Shown here: positions 5,523 through 34,607 of the stretch, one piece after another | How positions within the stretch are numbered: the first letter of the stretch is position 1 | Layout: each line of letters begins with the position of its first letter | Source of the DNA: Pseudomonas sp. sp1636 | GTDB taxonomy: Bacteria; Pseudomonadota; Gammaproteobacteria; Pseudomonadales; Pseudomonadaceae | Direction of reading: 5' to 3' | Assembly: GCF_030376615.1 (NCBI RefSeq) | Contig: NZ_JARRAB010000004.1 | Span: 62,001 to 126,000 of the forward strand | DNA length: 64,000 nt | Translations under genes and position numbers: made by a program | The notes under the pieces: generated by a model | Databases searched by the model: none | What the model saw: the letters and a program-made list of their open reading frames with translations, nothing else | Told to the model about the DNA's origin: nothing

Positions 5523-6887
5523 TTAACCCAGCAGCTCGCGCAGCACCCCGGCGAAGGCGCGGGCGGTTGCCGCTTCGCCGGGGTGCTGGCCGTTGCGAAC
5601 CACCCAGCGGCCGCCGACCATGACATCGCGGATCTGTCGCGCGCTGCCGGCGAACAGCCAGCGACCGAGCAGGGCATCGTCGCTGGCCGTGGCGATATAG
5701 GGGTCATCGCCATCCAGTACCAGCCAGTCGGCGCGCTTGCCGACGGCCAGTTCGCCCACCGGCTGGCCGAGCGCCTGGGCGCCGCCGGCCAGGGCCGCGT
5801 CGTACAGGCTACGGCCGATCAGCGGCTGGTCGCTGCGGTACAGGCGGTTGCGCCGCTGGTCGCGCAGGCGTTGGCCGTACTCCAGCCAGCGCAGCTCTTC
5901 GCTCATGCTGACCGAGACATGGCTGTCCGAACCGATGCCCAGGCGACCGCCCTGGGCGAGAAAGTCCACCGCCGGAAAGATACCGTCGCCGAGGTTGGCC
6001 TCGGTGCTCGGGCAGAGTCCGGCCACGGCGCCGCTGCGCGCCATCAGGCTGACTTCGTCGGCCTGCGCATGGGTGGCGTGCACCAGGCACCAGCGTTGAT
6101 CCACCGGCGCGTTCTCGTACAGCCATTGCAGGGGGCGGCGGCCACTCCAGGCCAGGCAGTCGTCGACCTCCTTCTGCTGCTCGGCGATATGGATATGGAT
6201 CGGACTGTCGCTGGTGTGCGCCGCCAGCACCGTCTCGATCTGTTCCGGGGTTACCGCGCGCAACGAATGGAAACACAGGCCCAGGCGCTGCGCCGGACGC
6301 TGTTCGAGCAGGGGCTGCAGGCGCTGGTGCAGGGCCAGGTAGCTGTCGCTGCTGTGGATAAAGCGCCGCTGCCCGGCATTCGCCGGTTGCCCGCCGAACC
6401 CCGAGTGGCTGTAGAGCACCGGTAGCAGGGTCAGGCCGATGCCGGCATCCAGGGCGGCCTGGCTGATGCGCAGGGCCAGCTCGGCCGGGTCGGCATAGGC
6501 CTGGCCCTGCGGGTCATGGTGCACGTAATGGAACTCGGCCACCGAGGTGTAGCCGGCCTTGAGCATCTCGATATACAGCTGGCGGGCGATCACCTCGACC
6601 TGTTCGGGGCTGAGCTGGCCGACCAGGCGGTACATCAGTTCGCGCCAGGTCCAGAAGCTGTCGTTGGGGTTGCCAGCCACTTCGGCGAGGCCCGCCATGG
6701 CGCGCTGGAAGGCGTGCGAGTGCAAGTTGGGCATGCCCGGCAGCAGCGGGCCGCACAGGCGTTCGGCACCCGCGGCCGAGGCGCCGACGCTGATGCTTTG
6801 CAGGATGCCGGAGGCGCAGACCTCTAGGCGGACGTTCTGTGCCCAGCCTTGGGCGAGCAGGGCGCGGGGGGCGAAGAATGCAGGCAT
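5523..6887 (-). CDS. hutF: Formimidoylglutamate deiminase HutF
   Basis: 454 residues. Converts N-formimino-L-glutamate to N-formyl-L-glutamate and ammonia, the fourth step of the five-step histidine pathway of pseudomonads, which hutG then completes. An amidohydrolase-superfamily metalloenzyme: MPNLHSHAFQRAM carries the metal-binding HxH, an FHSLRAVTP segment and a later HIAEQQKEVDDC strand follow, and LGIGSDSHVS supplies the catalytic Asp. The start at 6887 (MPAFFAPRALLAQG) is preferred because the upstream extension runs through the HutC operator. Transcribed divergently from hutC with the operator between them. Confidence 0.95.
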   Translation of the reverse strand: MPAFFAPRALLAQGWAQNVRLEVCASGILQSISVGASAAGAERLCGPLLPGMPNLHSHAFQRAMAGLAEVAGNPNDSFWTWRELMYRLVGQLSPEQVEVIARQLYIEMLKAGYTSVAEFHYVHHDPQGQAYADPAELALRISQAALDAGIGLTLLPVLYSHSGFGGQPANAGQRRFIHSSDSYLALHQRLQPLLEQRPAQRLGLCFHSLRAVTPEQIETVLAAHTSDSPIHIHIAEQQKEVDDCLAWSGRRPLQWLYENAPVDQRWCLVHATHAQADEVSLMARSGAVAGLCPSTEANLGDGIFPAVDFLAQGGRLGIGSDSHVSVSMSEELRWLEYGQRLRDQRRNRLYRSDQPLIGRSLYDAALAGGAQALGQPVGELAVGKRADWLVLDGDDPYIATASDDALLGRWLFAGSARQIRDVMVGGRWVVRNGQHPGEAATARAFAGVLRELLG

Positions 6888-6915
6888 AATGCTAGTCCAC
6901 TTGCTGGTATTTATT

Positions 6916-6925
6916 TGTATATACA
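6916..6925. promoter_or_regulatory. Candidate HutC operator (hutF/hutC divergent promoter)
   Basis: The perfect palindrome TGTATATACA, whose core GTATATAC fits GT-N-TA-N-AC, the operator pattern described for HutC-subfamily GntR regulators. A second half-overlapping ATAC run follows to 6931. It lies in the 93-bp gap between hutF and hutC, so HutC could repress both directions. The same decamer recurs upstream of hutU. Confidence 0.75.
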
Positions 6926-6980
6926 TATACAGGTGTTTGCGTCGAGGGTAAACTACCGATCAGGCGACAAGGAGAGATGC

Positions 6981-7733
6981 ATGGTAAAAACATTGTCGAA
7001 GCCGTCCGCTCTTGCCGGTCAGCTCAGTGAAGCACCGGCACCGCTGTATGCCCAGGTCAAGCAGATGATCGTCCAGCAGATCCACAGCGGCGCTTGGCCG
7101 GCGCACCACCGGGTGCCCTCGGAAAGCGAGCTGGTGGAGCAGCTGGGTTTCAGTCGCATGACCATCAACCGCGCCTTGCGCGAGTTGACCAATGACGGCC
7201 TGCTGCTGCGCATGCAAGGCGTGGGCACCTTCGTCGCCGAGCCCAAGGGGCGTTCGGCCTTGTTCGCGGTGAACAACATCGCCGACGAGATTGCCGCGCG
7301 CGGCCATCGTCACCACAGCAAGCTGATTCGCCTGGGCGAGGAGCTGGCCAGCCCGGAGCGGGCCATGGCGCTGGATCTGCGCGAAGGCCAGCGGGTATTC
7401 CACTCGCTGATCGTGCACTACGAGAACGATGTGCCGGTGCAGCTGGAGGATCGCTACGTCAATGCGGCCGTGGCGCCGGATTACCTCAAGCAGGATTTCA
7501 CCCAGCTCACGCCCTACGCCTACCTGTCGCGCGTCGCGCCGCTGAGCGAGGGCGAGCACGTGGTCGAGGCGATTCTCGCCGAGGCCGAGGAGTGCCGGCT
7601 GTTGCAGATCGAGCGCGGCGAACCCTGCCTGTTGATTCGCCGGCGCACCTGGTCCGGTTCCCAGGCCGTAACCTCGGCGCGCCTGCTGCATCCGGGCTCG
7701 CGCCATCGCCTGGAGGGGCGTTTCAGTTCATGA
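6981..7733 (+). CDS. hutC: Histidine utilisation repressor HutC (GntR family)
   Basis: 250 residues. The N-terminal winged helix of the GntR/HutC type (about residues 22-90: PLYAQVKQMIV ... VPSESELVEQLGFSRMTINR ... GVGTFVAEPKGRS) is followed by a UTRA ligand-binding domain (about 110-245). HutC represses hut genes and is released by urocanate. The start at 6981 has AAGGAGAG upstream. The longer frame reads through the operator region. Its stop overlaps the hutD start (ATGA). Autoregulation is suggested by the operator immediately upstream. Confidence 0.95.
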   Translation: MVKTLSKPSALAGQLSEAPAPLYAQVKQMIVQQIHSGAWPAHHRVPSESELVEQLGFSRMTINRALRELTNDGLLLRMQGVGTFVAEPKGRSALFAVNNIADEIAARGHRHHSKLIRLGEELASPERAMALDLREGQRVFHSLIVHYENDVPVQLEDRYVNAAVAPDYLKQDFTQLTPYAYLSRVAPLSEGEHVVEAILAEAEECRLLQIERGEPCLLIRRRTWSGSQAVTSARLLHPGSRHRLEGRFSS

Positions 7734-8320
7734 GCCAGATTCATCTCCATCGAGCCGCCGACTATCCGCGCATGCCCTGGAAGAACGGCGGCGGCAGTAC
7801 CCTGGAAATCGCCCGCGACCAGGGCGAAGGCCTGGAGGGGTTCGGTTGGCGCCTGTCGCTCGCCGATATCGGCGAGTCGGGCGGCTTTTCCGCCTTTGCC
7901 GGCTACCAGCGCATCATCACCGTGCTGGAAGGCGCGGGCATGCAGTTGCAGGTGGACGGCGTGCCGTCGCGGCCGCTGTTGCCGTTCGATCCCTTTGCCT
8001 TCAGTGGCGACAGCCGGGTGCAGTGCCAGTTGCTGGCCGGCGCCATCCGCGACTTCAACCTGATCTATGCGCCGCAGCGCTACCGCGTGCGCTTGCAGTG
8101 GTTGGCGTTGGCGCGGTCGCAGCGCCTGTTCAGCTCGGCCAGCACGCTGCTGTTGTTCGGTGCGGTCGATGCGCTGCAGGTGACGGTCGATGACGCCGAC
8201 TGCGCGCTGCTGGGGCGCTACGACTGTCTGCAGATCGAGCGCGCCATCGGCCTGGTCGAGTTGCAATTGGCGGCGGATACGCCGGGGGCGTGCTGCCTGA
8301 TCGAATTGATCGCGCTTTAG
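7730..8320 (+). CDS. hutD: HutD family protein
   Basis: A 196-residue cupin-fold protein with the HutD/Ves signature: PWKNGGGSTLEIA near residues 17-29, FGWRLSLADIGESGGFSAF and the LEGAGMQL strand. Studies of Pseudomonas HutD suggest it tunes hut expression, perhaps by binding formylglutamate; this is known of the family, not shown here. It overlaps hutC by 4 bases, so the two form one transcript, and a hairpin follows the stop. Confidence 0.9.
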   Translation: MSQIHLHRAADYPRMPWKNGGGSTLEIARDQGEGLEGFGWRLSLADIGESGGFSAFAGYQRIITVLEGAGMQLQVDGVPSRPLLPFDPFAFSGDSRVQCQLLAGAIRDFNLIYAPQRYRVRLQWLALARSQRLFSSASTLLLFGAVDALQVTVDDADCALLGRYDCLQIERAIGLVELQLAADTPGACCLIELIAL

Positions 8321-8334
8321 CGCCTCGCGGGAGT

Positions 8335-8356
8335 GGGAGCCCCCGGCGGGGCTCCC
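8335..8356. terminator. Hairpin between hutD and the convergent ABC-transporter operon
   Basis: GGGAGCCCC and GGGGCTCCC form a 9-bp stem with a short loop between two convergent genes. No T tract follows, so it is a probable but weak bidirectional terminator. Confidence 0.6.
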
Positions 8357-8364
8357 GCTAGGGC

Positions 8365-9099
8365 TTACAGCACCTGGCGCAGGAAGGCCTGGGCGCGCGG
8401 ATCCTGGGGTTGCTGGAAGAATTGCGCGGGGGCGGCATCCTCCAGCAGCTTGCCGTGGTCGAAGAACAGCACGCGGTCGGCCACTTCGCGGGCGAAGCCC
8501 ATCTCGTGGGTCACGCAGACCATGGTCATGCCTTCCAGGGCCAGGGTCTTCATCACGTCCAGCACCTCGCCGACCATCTCCGGGTCGAGCGCCGAGGTGG
8601 GCTCGTCGAACAGCATCACCTTGGGCTCCATGCACAGTGCGCGGGCGATGGCCACCCGCTGTTGCTGGCCGCCAGACAGGTGCGAGGGGTACTCGTTGGC
8701 CTTCTGCGCGATGCCGACCTTGTCCAGCAGGGCACGGGCCTTGTCCTCGCACTCGCGCTTGCTGCGCTTGCGCACCACCTTCTGCGCCAGACAGAGGTTC
8801 TCCAGCACGGTCATGTGCGGGAACAGGTTGAAGTGCTGGAACACCATGCCGACCTCGCGGCGGTAGGCGTTGACGTCGGTTCTGGCGTCGGCCAGGTCGA
8901 CGCCGTCGATGCTCACCGAGCCGGAGTCCAGGGTTTCCAGGCCGTTCAGGCAGCGCAGGAAGGTCGACTTGCCGGAGCCGGACGGGCCCAGCACCACCAG
9001 CACTTCGCCCTTGGCGACCTCGGTGTCGACGTTGTCCACCGCGCGCACCAGCTGGCCGCGGGCGTTGAAGGTTTTAACCAGTTCTCGGACTTTAATCAC
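8365..9099 (-). CDS. Polar amino acid ABC transporter, ATP-binding protein (hut locus)
   Basis: 244 residues, the standard size of GlnQ/HisP-type ATPases. Walker A is GPSGSGKS (about 38-45), the signature is LSGGQQQR, Walker B is [12 protein letters not shown] and the H-loop is CVTHEMGF. It powers import by the permease and binding protein encoded just upstream (8-bp overlap with the permease gene). Position inside the hut cluster and a HutC-like operator ahead of the binding-protein gene make histidine or urocanate the likely substrate. That is an inference; sequence alone does not fix specificity. Confidence 0.9.
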
Positions 9100-31536: not shown

Positions 31537-31575
31537 AAACGCCAACGCCCGGCCCCGTGCCGGGCGTTGGCGTTT
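31537..31575. terminator. Terminator after phaF, copy 1 of a duplicated terminator
   Basis: Perfect 16-bp stem AAACGCCAACGCCCGG/CCGGGCGTTGGCGTTT with a 7-base loop, followed by TT. Thirty bases within it (from 31546) match the hairpin at 34577 with 2 differences. See the finding on the duplicated terminators. Confidence 0.9.
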
Positions 31576-31769: not shown

Positions 31770-31938
31770 TGCTGCAGTGGGTCGTCGGAGCCTGGCAGGC
31801 CTCGAACCCATGCCGCGTCGGATGTGCGGGCATTCGCTCTCCGCCTGGAAGTTGCCCTGCGGCGCCTCGAAGTGCACCTGCCGATCATCATACTGGCCGG
31901 CACCTGATCTGCCGTTTGTCGGCAGATTTGATCAAAAA

Positions 31939-31955
31939 ATGAACATAGTGCTCAT
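31939..31955. promoter_or_regulatory. Operator-like inverted repeat upstream of the rnfC-like gene
   Basis: ATGAACATAGTGCTCAT, 6-bp half-sites (ATGAAC and the complement of ATGAGC) around a 5-base centre, as in TetR/MarR-type operators. A second repeat CTCAC-N8-GTGAG lies at 31962-31979. Both lie 108-148 bases before the start codon of the rnfC-like gene. Confidence 0.5.
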
Positions 31956-32086
31956 TATTCGCTCACATAATCTCGTGAGTGATTGAGTGTCCTGCCTCGC
32001 TTTTCCCTCAAATACCCGGAGCAAAACTCTCTTATGTGCATTGCCGCGCAGGGGGTGTTTTATGCCAAAAAATTGAAGGACGGAAA

Positions 32087-33487
32087 ATGTCTAGTCATTC
32101 GTTTCAGAGCGCCGAGCGCATGCAGCCAGCGTTGCTAAGCCAGCGCCAGTCGCCAGCGAAGCCCTTCTGGCGCCGCCTGTTCGCCATCGCCACGCCTGCA
32201 CAACGTAGCTGGCGCGGCGGCCTCAAGCTCAGAGGCTACAAGCAATTATCCAACACCACGCCGATTGCCCCGGTCGCGGTCGGATCAATACAGCTGGCGA
32301 TCCCGCTCGAGCGGGGGCGCCGATGCGCTCAGCCCTGCGTGCAGCCGGGGCAGTATGTGCGCAAGGGCGAGGTGATCGGCATGGGCGATGGCAACACCCC
32401 CTGGGTGCATGCCAGCACCTCCGGCACCGTGGTACAGATCGGCCCCGCCTTCGCGGCCGACTCAGCCGAGCCGGTTATGGCGGTCATGCTGCACGCAGAC
32501 GGTCTGGATGAGTGGCTCGTGCGTCCCGTGCTGACGCCACCGCAATCGCCCGAGTCGCTGGTCGAACGGGCTTTGCAGATGGGCATCGTTGGCCTGGGTG
32601 GGGCGGGCTTCCCCACAGGCCTCAAGCTGGCCGGTGCCCAGCAGCCCGACCTGTTGCTGATCAACGGTGCCGAATGTGAACCCTTCCTGACCTGCGACGA
32701 TCGACTCATGCGCGAACGTGCCGAGGCGCTGATCGAGACCGCCGACTATCTCGCCAGCCTGCTGGGCATCGCGCAGACCCGCTTCGGCATCGAAAGCAAC
32801 AAGCCGGAGGCGATGGCGGCGTTGCGCGACGCCTCCCGTCAGGCGCGCACCCAGGTCGAGATTTGCCCGCTGCCGACGCGCTACCCGGCAGGCGGCCAAC
32901 CGTTGATGATCAAGAGCCTGAGCGGCCGTAATCTGGCGCCGGGTGCCCGGCCGGCCGAGATCGGCGTGCTGGCGCTGAATGTCGCGACGCTTTATGCACT
33001 GGGACGCGCCGTGTTCCACGGCGAGCCGCTGATCACGCGTGTACTGACGCTGACCGGGGGCTGTGAACGCCCCGGCAACGTCGAGGTGCCGGTGGGTTAT
33101 CCGGTCAGCGCACTGCGCAAGATTGCCGGCGCCGATCCCGAAGGCCAGCTGACCCAGGTCGGCGGCCCGATGATGGGACAGCCGTTACCGGATCCCGCCG
33201 CGGTCATCAGCAAGACCAGTAGTTGCCTGATCTTTGCCGCCGAGCGCTACCTGCCGGCCGCCGAACCCGCGGGCAGTTGCATTCGCTGTACACGCTGCGT
33301 CGACGTCTGCCCGATGTCGTTGCGCCCCCTGGATCTCTACGCCGCTGCCGAACGCGATGACCACGCGACCCTGCAGACGCTGCGCCTGGATGCCTGCATC
33401 GAGTGCGGCAGCTGCAGCAGCACCTGCCCCAGCAACCTGCCGCTGCGCGAGCGCTTTCGCCAGAGCAAGATGGAGATGTCCCAATGA
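32087..33487 (+). CDS. RnfC-like electron transport subunit (orphan)
   Basis: 466 residues. The order matches RnfC: a basic 45-residue N-terminal leader, a barrel/lipoyl-like domain (about 55-140, CVQPGQYVRKGEVIG), an NADH/FMN-binding Complex I 51-kDa-like domain with GLGGAGFPT (169-177) and INGAECEP (192-199), an SLBB-type region, and two 4Fe-4S clusters: Cys398/401/404/408 and Cys437/440/443/447. RnfC passes electrons from NADH in Rnf complexes. The start at 32087 has GAAGGA upstream; the GTG at 31979 lacks support. It overlaps the rnfD-like gene by 4 bases. No rnfA, B, E or G is present in the window. Confidence 0.85.
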   Translation: MSSHSFQSAERMQPALLSQRQSPAKPFWRRLFAIATPAQRSWRGGLKLRGYKQLSNTTPIAPVAVGSIQLAIPLERGRRCAQPCVQPGQYVRKGEVIGMGDGNTPWVHASTSGTVVQIGPAFAADSAEPVMAVMLHADGLDEWLVRPVLTPPQSPESLVERALQMGIVGLGGAGFPTGLKLAGAQQPDLLLINGAECEPFLTCDDRLMRERAEALIETADYLASLLGIAQTRFGIESNKPEAMAALRDASRQARTQVEICPLPTRYPAGGQPLMIKSLSGRNLAPGARPAEIGVLALNVATLYALGRAVFHGEPLITRVLTLTGGCERPGNVEVPVGYPVSALRKIAGADPEGQLTQVGGPMMGQPLPDPAAVISKTSSCLIFAAERYLPAAEPAGSCIRCTRCVDVCPMSLRPLDLYAAAERDDHATLQTLRLDACIECGSCSSTCPSNLPLRERFRQSKMEMSQ

Positions 33488-34512
33488 GCCTGGTACGCCG
33501 TCCTACCCCGCAGCGACTCAGCACGCTGATGCTGCTGGTCAGTCTGTGCCTGCTGCCGGGCACCGTTCTTTATGCCTGGCAATTCGGTGTCGTGGTCTGG
33601 CTGCAGACCTTCTGGTGCGTGCTGCTGGCTTTTGGCTTCGAAGCCGGTCTGCTGCGTCTGCGCGGACGTAATGTACGCGAGGGCTTGAGCGATCTGAGCT
33701 GGCTGGTGCTGGGCCTGATTCTGGCTCGGGCACTGCCGCTGCTGGTGCCGCTGTGGATGATCGCGCTGGCCAGCTTTGCCGCCCTCGCATTGTGTAAACA
33801 CGGCAGTGGGGGGCTTGGCCGCAACCGTCTCAATCCCGCCATGGTTGGCCTGGGAATCATCGCCATCTGCTTTTACCAACAGCTGTACCCCGCGCCATCG
33901 AATCAGGCCCCATGGACCTTCGCCCTGGACGCTAAAGAGGTTCTTCTGCAGCAGTTGCAGCTGGCACCGCGCCTCAGCCTCGATGCGTTCGCTGGCGCCA
34001 CCCAGCTGGCCCTGGGGCAGTTCACTCCGACCACCCCCAATCTGTCGGGGCTCGGCTATGTCGCCGGCGGTTTAATACTGGCTGTCTTGCGGGTGATCCG
34101 CATCGAGATTCCGCTGGCGATGCTCGCCAGCACGGCATTGCTGTGCCTGGCAGCCGGCCATACCCTGCAGGAAAGCCTGTACAGCCTCAGCCTCGGCGGC
34201 TATCTGTTCACCGCCTTTTTCATCGCCACCGATCCGGTCACCAGTCCCGATACGCGTGCCGGGCGCATCCTGTTCGGCGCTGTCATTGGCGTGCTGACCG
34301 AATTGATTCGCGAATTCGGGCTGTACGCCGATGGTCTCTGCTTCGCCGTCCTCGCCGCCAACCTGCTGGTGCCGCAGATCGATGGCCTGGTGCAGCGCAT
34401 GCAACGCCCCTGGTATGACCAACGCACGGCACTGGCAAGCGGACGAAAAGCAGACGCGCATTCGTCGATCCCTGGTCATGACCGAAAGCATATTGGCCCT
34501 GCTGTTGCCTGA
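33484..34512 (+). CDS. RnfD-like flavinylated membrane protein (orphan)
   Basis: 342 residues with about nine predicted helices. The NRLNPAMVGLGI motif near 114-125 and IATDPVTSPDT, AGRILFGAVIGVL and FAVLAANLLVPQIDGLV near the end are typical RnfD/NqrB features. DAFAGATQL at 167-175 carries Thr173, the expected covalent FMN site (motif D-x-x-[AST]-G-A-T). It couples to the RnfC-like gene by ATGA overlap. RnfD normally lies beside RnfA, E and G; here none is present. The C-terminal tail after the last helix is polar (about 25 residues). Function as a two-subunit module is inferred. Confidence 0.82.
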   Translation: MSLVRRPTPQRLSTLMLLVSLCLLPGTVLYAWQFGVVVWLQTFWCVLLAFGFEAGLLRLRGRNVREGLSDLSWLVLGLILARALPLLVPLWMIALASFAALALCKHGSGGLGRNRLNPAMVGLGIIAICFYQQLYPAPSNQAPWTFALDAKEVLLQQLQLAPRLSLDAFAGATQLALGQFTPTTPNLSGLGYVAGGLILAVLRVIRIEIPLAMLASTALLCLAAGHTLQESLYSLSLGGYLFTAFFIATDPVTSPDTRAGRILFGAVIGVLTELIREFGLYADGLCFAVLAANLLVPQIDGLVQRMQRPWYDQRTALASGRKADAHSSIPGHDRKHIGPAVA

Positions 34513-34575: not shown

Positions 34576-34607
34576 ACGCCCGGCCTGGTGCCGGGCGTTG
34601 GCGTTTA
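34576..34607. terminator. Terminator copy 2, downstream of the rnfD-like gene and of phaD
   Basis: ACGCCCGG/CCGGGCGT stem with a 7-base loop CCTGGTG, followed by TGGCGTTTA. The 3' half (34591-34606) is identical to 31560-31575 in the phaF terminator, but the outer left arm has been lost, so the hairpin is shorter (8 bp). It sits between the convergent stop codons of the rnfD-like gene and phaD. Confidence 0.75.

Follow-up and report, generated by a model that had tools for sequence, protein, structure and literature searches.

The closest described systems to the gene pair reported here are the Rnf complex (RnfABCDGE; Rsx in E. coli), Na+-NQR (NqrA-F) and the partial systems termed 'NQR/RNF-like'. 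In solved Rnf, electrons are reported to pass the covalent flavin mononucleotide (FMN) of RnfD, near the periplasm, the riboflavin of RnfD, two [4Fe-4S] clusters together with the FMN of RnfC, and nicotinamide adenine dinucleotide (NAD; NADH when reduced) (PMC12174285). We analyzed 64,000 nucleotides of the Pseudomonas sp. sp1636 genome (contig NZ_JARRAB010000004.1, positions 62,001 to 126,000), hereafter the window, and focused on two overlapping genes for an RnfC-like and an RnfD-like protein. Present annotation labels the products RsxC and RnfD, as for full Rnf; we call the genes rnfC2 and rnfD2. We favor, with a probability of about 0.6, the reading that RnfC2 and RnfD2 form a two-subunit conduit that works alone, taking electrons from cytoplasmic NADH and handing them to an acceptor on the periplasmic side.

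RnfC2 and RnfD2 are homologous to RnfC and RnfD and have the same cofactor motifs. The pair differs from Rnf in that no other rnf subunit lies alongside it, both proteins form clades of their own (that of RnfD2 on a long stem), RnfC2 lacks the C-terminal extension of RnfC, and RnfD2 misses the RsxD equivalog model. Like RnfD2, NqrB of Na+-NQR belongs to PF03116 and carries the same covalent-FMN threonine. However, RnfD2 lies outside the NqrB clade, and RnfC2 keeps its cofactor motifs, whereas NqrA is reported to have no redox cofactors (PMC12174285).

The NQR/RNF-like systems (Meheust et al. 2021, PMC8238504; PMC10979944) are proposed to be one-way systems that take electrons from NAD(P)H and deliver them to extracytosolic acceptors. 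They are described as two-subunit, NqrB/RnfD-based and linked to flavinylation; likewise, the flavinylation gene apbE accompanies 8 of the 19 pair loci that we compared. As reported, they consist of an FMN-bind subunit and an NqrB/RnfD protein that is fused to an NqrF-type PF00175 domain and has lost the flavinylation site in its RnfD part. In contrast, the pair has an RnfC as its NADH module, no FMN-bind subunit alongside and an invariant site in RnfD2. PF03116 is the sole Pfam match of RnfD2, with no PF00175 domain fused to it. The conduit that we propose resembles the two-subunit NQR/RNF-like systems in principle, not in parts. Because that survey, in its published definitions, identified RNF by RnfB (PMC8238504, PMC10979944), the pair would not be filed there as RNF. 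The titles and abstract openings of the literature searched, which left subscription journals mostly outside, held no description of an RnfC-RnfD unit without other subunits, which does not prove that none exists.

If the pair works alone, the electron paths of Rnf and Nqr can be split into functioning halves, a point relevant to how such pumps came together. The pair would then offer, in addition, a two-gene system for NADH-to-RnfD transfer and for covalent flavinylation of RnfD without six subunits, and a further route for cytosolic NADH into periplasmic redox chemistry.

A complete pair apart from the Rnf and Nqr clusters

Both reading frames are intact, and they overlap by the four bases ATGA. 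RnfC2 contains the motifs GLGGAGFPT and INGAECEP and two sets of cysteines (398/401/404/408 and 437/440/443/447), and RnfD2 contains DAFAGAT, with Thr173. A first-pass annotation, made from the letters of the window, had described a complete RnfC-like protein with these two motifs and two cluster cysteine sets, overlapping an RnfD-like protein with a flavinylation motif; each of these elements was found where it had been placed. RnfC2 has about 40 added N-terminal residues and ends directly after the ferredoxin domain. The genome's own RnfC is 754 residues long and has a long C-terminal extension that is missing from RnfC2. At the other end of the pair, the RnfD2 frame continues for about 23 residues (window 34440-34512) past the point where its closest relatives, P0005 and P0010 (319 residues), end.

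In profile searches, RnfC2 scored 392 bits against TIGR01945 rnfC (cut-off, 246) and 425 bits against the RsxC equivalog NF003454 (cut-off, 345). RnfD2 matched PF03116 at 230 bits and narrowly passed TIGR01946, the broad rnfD subfamily model (216 versus 207 bits). It fell below the cut-offs of the RsxD equivalog NF002011 (192.7 versus 415 bits) and of both NqrB models, NF003756 (100 versus 414 bits) and TIGR01937 (94.5 versus 349.9 bits). The best relatives in the PDB come from a single Azotobacter complex: its RnfC for RnfC2 (8ahx_C, E 4.4e-85) and its RnfD for RnfD2 (8ahx_D, E 7.8e-29). The pair therefore has the Rnf-type features that can be read from sequence, namely, an RnfC homologue with an NADH/FMN domain and two [4Fe-4S] motifs and an RnfD homologue with the threonine position for covalent FMN.

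The genome (4.46 Mb in 58 contigs, with the window on contig C34) encodes one further RnfC (44% identical to RnfC2), one further RnfD (36% identical to RnfD2) and one NqrB; profile search gave three PF03116 proteins in all. An rnfABCDGE-nth cluster and an nqrABCDEF cluster both lie away from the pair. RnfC, RnfD, NqrB, RnfA/E, NqrD/E, RnfG and NqrC of these clusters were matched by profile, while rnfB, nqrA and nqrF were named from order, length and sequence. Matches to PF02508 (RnfA/RnfE/NqrD/NqrE) fell only on contigs C57 and C12, and matches to FMN_bind (RnfG/NqrC) fell only on C57, C12, C7 and C23. The whole-genome profile search, which covered these two families and not RnfB, gave no match to either on C34, in agreement with the earlier statement that rnfA, rnfE and rnfG are missing beside the pair. 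The single ApbE of the genome adjoins nqrF (C12:238589-239431). Thus, the complete Rnf cluster and the ApbE that the first-pass annotation asked for are both encoded, and its remark that ApbE must act in trans holds for this genome.

Recurrence, descent and selection

We compared 19 pair loci: the window, the ten other Pseudomonas carriers in our sample (L123-L132), L041-L045 and L183-L185. Up to about 10 kb of DNA was viewed on each side of every other locus, with much less at contig ends (for example, L127 and L042). rnfC2 and rnfD2 are adjacent in all 19; in L045, about 0.1 kb separates them. Within the DNA viewed, none of the other 18 loci has another rnf or nqr subunit, relatives of RnfG and NqrC included. 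The RnfD2 locus search kept the best 80 of 577 loci, and the other 75 of these 80 all sit among further rnf genes. This survey of isolated pairs, their neighbors and their phylogeny, which the first-pass annotation had proposed, found the pair in 11 of 298 Pseudomonas genomes, the window's own included.

Outside the genus, the pair was present in 5 of 116 genomes from the family of Pontibacterium and in 1 of 10 from the family of Parachitinimonas; among 369 genomes sampled across the class, the window's own was the only carrier. In the RnfD2 protein search, the 7999 candidates with the most words in common were scored and 120 of 126 matches were listed; the RnfC2 search listed 120 of 3557. Among the matches listed, RnfD2 relatives 52-100% identical come from scattered Pseudomonas, Vogesella, Crenobacter, Pseudogulbenkiania, Marinobacterium, an Oceanospirillaceae metagenome-assembled genome and Photobacterium. 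The best 80 of 577 loci add Pontibacterium (61%) and Parachitinimonas (47%). RnfC2 relatives have the same spread among the matches listed, plus a Chitinibacter candidate (45%) that stands outside our trees. One record from Pseudomonas putida S11 (P0051) is a 596-residue fusion of parts of RnfC2 and RnfD2 with no ferredoxin domain listed, either a natural deletion or an assembly error.

The RnfD tree had 68 rows: 27 RnfD2, 27 canonical RnfD (26 of the 75 canonical loci and the genome's own copy), 6 divergent Pseudomonas proteins and 8 NqrB. Four of the RnfD2 rows (P0057-P0060, 39-42% identical) are protein records without gene neighbors viewed. All 27 RnfD2 rows form one clade (support 100/100) on a long stem of 1.46 changes per column. 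The clade is separate from the genome's own RnfD and, again with 100/100, from NqrB. We thereby reject an NqrB origin of RnfD2, and the pair does not belong to the Nqr clade, a placement that the first-pass annotation had considered. RnfD2 groups weakly (86/83) with enterobacterial and Vibrio RnfD, which makes descent from Rnf likely, with the exact sister less certain. The RnfC tree had 45 rows, 19 RnfC2 and 26 canonical (25 loci and the own copy), and no NqrA row. The 19 RnfC2 rows form one clade (100/100) against the canonical ones, and they do so with the canonical row L101 kept in, although this row has a very long branch and is probably misread.

Recurrence of the same pair in many genomes, named isolates included, and its own deep clade also lead us to reject, for the pair itself, a contig error or a recent fragment of an assembled rnf cluster, the other possibility raised at first pass. 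Between the window and relatives, the ratio of nonsynonymous to synonymous substitution rates was 0.17-0.24 in the 7 comparisons made with RnfC2 and 0.14-0.25 in the 6 made with RnfD2. We conclude that both genes are under purifying selection. The pair is intact, independent and under selection, and the view that it is no decaying operon stands.

The cofactor residues are conserved. All eight cluster cysteines are at least 90% conserved in RnfC2 rows and in canonical RnfC rows; 78 positions reach at least 90% in both sets, among them the principal glycine and acidic positions of GLGGAGFPT and NGAECEP. Thr173, Asn114 and Asn117 of RnfD2 are kept in 27/27 RnfD2, 27/27 canonical RnfD and 8/8 NqrB rows; we take the two asparagines to be riboflavin contacts. 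DAFAGAT fits the reported flavinylation motif D-x-x-[S/T]-G-A-[S/T] (PMC12052999) except for Ala at place four, and the genome's own NqrB deviates in the same way (DGFAGAT).

The 13 Pseudomonas loci have 10 different surroundings (criterion, at least 1500 aligned flank bases within 7 kb). Homology upstream of the rnfC2 start extends for 53 nucleotides in one of the 12 other Pseudomonas loci and for 108-228 nucleotides in eleven. Because the surroundings vary while the upstream homology persists, the pair, as judged from these alignments, behaves like a cassette that brings its leader along. Within the rnfC2 leader, at about 32034-32055 of the window, lies a palindrome resembling TGTGCA-N-CGCACA. 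It is kept in most of the 13 loci, is imperfect in the window and is a possible operator.

The proposed electron path and its rivals

In the path that we propose, NADH would reduce FMN on RnfC2, and electrons would then pass to the two [4Fe-4S] clusters, to riboflavin in RnfD2 and to FMN held covalently on Thr173, from which a periplasmic acceptor would be reduced. This would be the NAD-side half of Rnf, run in the NADH-oxidizing direction. Since RnfC and RnfD suffice for that half path, the pair most likely carries NADH electrons to the periplasmic flavin. We infer the cofactor content, assembly, direction and acceptor of the pair. With the motifs kept and the published Rnf path as a guide, the first-pass proposal that NADH electrons pass through a membrane flavin remains the best reading, its direction being likewise inferred. 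More tentatively, and at somewhat short of an even chance, we picture a minimal, two-subunit, ApbE-dependent transmembrane NADH oxidase-conduit, consisting of the NAD-side half of Rnf only, carried between genomes as a compact cassette with its own promoter region and working without an FMN-bind shuttle, a [2Fe-2S] gate or RnfB input.

On the question of INDEPENDENCE from Rnf, we found PF02508 in 15 of 16 carrier genomes searched and FMN_bind in 18 of 19, with Parachitinimonas caeni (G670) the exception both times. Profile search of this one draft genome detected no PF02508 protein (RnfA/E, NqrD/E) and no FMN_bind protein. The P. caeni pair is 46-47% identical to that of the window; its RnfD2, the most deeply branching row of the clade, keeps Thr173, and apbE accompanies the pair. 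Because P. caeni has the pair and apbE without detectable RnfA/E, NqrD/E or FMN_bind, the pair cannot serve in all carriers as a spare part of Rnf, and for the P. caeni lineage the spare-part reading falls away.

Several points weigh against a conduit that works alone. With PF02508 and FMN_bind so common among carriers, most of these would still allow RnfC2 or RnfD2 to dock with other Rnf subunits, and the case of absence is one genome, judged by profile search. Among the neighbors viewed, some of which (20 proteins) were run against Pfam, we saw no recurring gene for a periplasmic partner. The AlphaFold model of RnfD2 is mediocre (predicted local distance difference test score, 69.7; template modeling scores of the best PDB matches, 0.39-0.43) and serves as a consistency check only. 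The missing C-terminal extension of RnfC2 proves little, because RnfC of Clostridium tetanomorphum and of Acetobacterium woodii is also reported to be without it (PMC12174285).

One alternative is that the pair is an exchangeable NAD-side module, replacing RnfC and RnfD within Rnf or supplying RnfC to the rnf operon that, in some Pseudomonas, has none. All 11 carrier Pseudomonas encode a further PF03116 protein, an RnfD by its operon where viewed, and in 5 of the 11 RnfC2 is the only RnfC found; moreover, the RnfC subunits in two solved Rnf complexes are without the extension as well (PMC12174285). However, neither RnfA/E nor NqrD/E was detected in P. caeni, and RnfC2 is accompanied by its own RnfD2 at every one of the 19 loci. 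The extension that RnfC2 lacks is reported to contact RnfB and RnfH in Azotobacter (PMC12174285), and the genome's own RnfC has it. Finally, any RnfC occurs in 43 of 298 Pseudomonas genomes and an RnfD/NqrB relative in 216; RnfC2 is therefore missing, too, from most genomes that have such a relative and lack a canonical RnfC. We regard the exchangeable module as unlikely, if still worth keeping in view.

Since the same counts set 43 genomes with RnfC against 216 with an RnfD/NqrB relative, a reduced Rnf without RnfC may be common in Pseudomonas. We observed a divergent rnf operon of this kind, without rnfC, between metG and nth in three genomes (L186, L187 and L188, in G103, G093 and G021, respectively); in L186, rnfB was not found either. 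Its RnfA lacks both cysteines and its RnfE the first of two, residues that we assume to be ligands of the [2Fe-2S] cluster, while RnfD and RnfG keep the flavin threonine.

Two further alternatives concern where the electrons go. The pair could be an NADH:quinone oxidoreductase in which RnfD2 riboflavin passes electrons to ubiquinone in the membrane, as in NqrB. RnfD2 does belong to the NqrB fold family, and RnfC2 has its added N-terminal segment. The N-terminal amphipathic helices of the NqrB quinone site are reported to be absent from RnfD (PMC12174285), however, and RnfD2 is also short; the invariant covalent-FMN threonine points to use of a periplasmic flavin, though NqrB keeps this threonine too. 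We consider quinone reduction unlikely. Alternatively, a periplasmic donor might reduce NAD+ through RnfD2 and RnfC2, driven by an ion gradient. Rnf is reported to be reversible (PMC12174285, PMC12052999), but the neighbors viewed include no recurring donor protein, and we think the reverse direction quite improbable.

The conduit reading makes the pair dependent on ApbE, the enzyme class that attaches FMN to RnfD. ApbE would load Thr173, in this genome as a trans-acting product of the nqr locus and in relatives often as the product of a next-door gene. This recurrent neighbor had been overlooked at first pass. In L127, L129-L132, L041 and L042, apbE lies upstream in divergent orientation, no more than about 0.8 kb away; in L045 it is found about 1.6 kb downstream, with two other genes in between. 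The window's own locus has no apbE, and we found no apbE remnant in front of its rnfC2. The three neighbor ApbE proteins tested by Pfam matched PF02424 at 224-276 bits, and a genome search for ApbE recovered the same neighbor genes in G021, G057, G072, G093 and G103. In the ApbE tree, in which the P. caeni row is partial (184 residues), six Pseudomonas copies form one clade (98/100) and the G093 copy lies elsewhere, near nqr-type ApbE (88/96). Because the G093 copy falls outside the main clade, apbE has been placed beside the pair at least twice.

Among Pseudomonas carriers, apbE neighbors the pair in 6 of 6 genomes without nqr versus 1 of 7 with nqr, counts that ignore shared ancestry. The pattern is consistent with a requirement for ApbE that can be satisfied by the nqr-linked copy as well. 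We rejected the strict rule that apbE adjoins the pair only where nqr is missing: 11 genomes fit it (0/6 with nqr, 5/5 without), yet in BN102 (G666) PF02508 and FMN_bind matches indicate nqr and apbE nevertheless adjoins the pair.

Placement in the PHA locus and further features

In this genome, the pair sits between phaF and phaD of the polyhydroxyalkanoate (PHA) locus, and the first-pass annotation had suggested a link to redox balance in PHA metabolism. That position, seen in this genome only, is what speaks for a PHA-linked redox valve. In the DNA viewed, pha genes are near none of the 18 other pair loci, and none of 24 other phaD loci has the pair. We therefore reject a PHA function and give the valve scarcely any credence. 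The PhaD search covered 38 genomes, the window's own included; of the 24 others that matched, 20 belong to the same genus, and 4, with 36-43% identity, are more distant. In the 20 in-genus loci, phaF comes directly after phaD in 16, a contig end intervenes in 2, and phaF was not found within the 1.5 kb viewed in 2. The PHA position thus appears accidental and peculiar to this genome. A possible misjoin there would leave the nature of the pair unchanged.

Two copies of a hairpin flank the insert (Table 1). A terminator-like hairpin with GCCCG/CGGGC or a close variant was seen by eye in the first 200 nucleotides of 12 of the 16 phaF-phaD gaps.

Table 1. Positions of the pair and associated features in the window
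Feature	Position	Strand	Description
Upstream stretch kept with the pair	31862..32086		Probable promoter and 5' leader, from alignment to other Pseudomonas loci
rnfC2	32087..33487	+	RnfC-like NADH/FMN protein, 466 residues; ATG at 32087, stop at 33487
RnfC2 Cys398-Cys447 codons	33278..33427	+	Predicted ligands of two [4Fe-4S] clusters
rnfD2	33484..34512	+	RnfD-like membrane protein, 342 residues
RnfD2 DAFAGAT	33982..34002	+	Predicted flavinylation motif; Thr173 codon at 34000-34002
Hairpin repeat after phaF	31545..31575	+	Terminator-like, 31 bp, left flank of insert; 94% identical to right copy
Second hairpin copy	34576..34606	+	31 bp, right flank of insert, before the phaD end

Some neighbors at other loci deserve mention. 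In L043, a di-haem cytochrome c peroxidase/MauG gene (7263-8429) lies directly upstream of rnfC2, and the related marine locus L184 has a similar open reading frame (6744-7919) with CxxCH motifs. In one genome, a protein with a Cap15-like cyclic-dinucleotide receptor domain is encoded downstream of the pair (L123:11275-11928).

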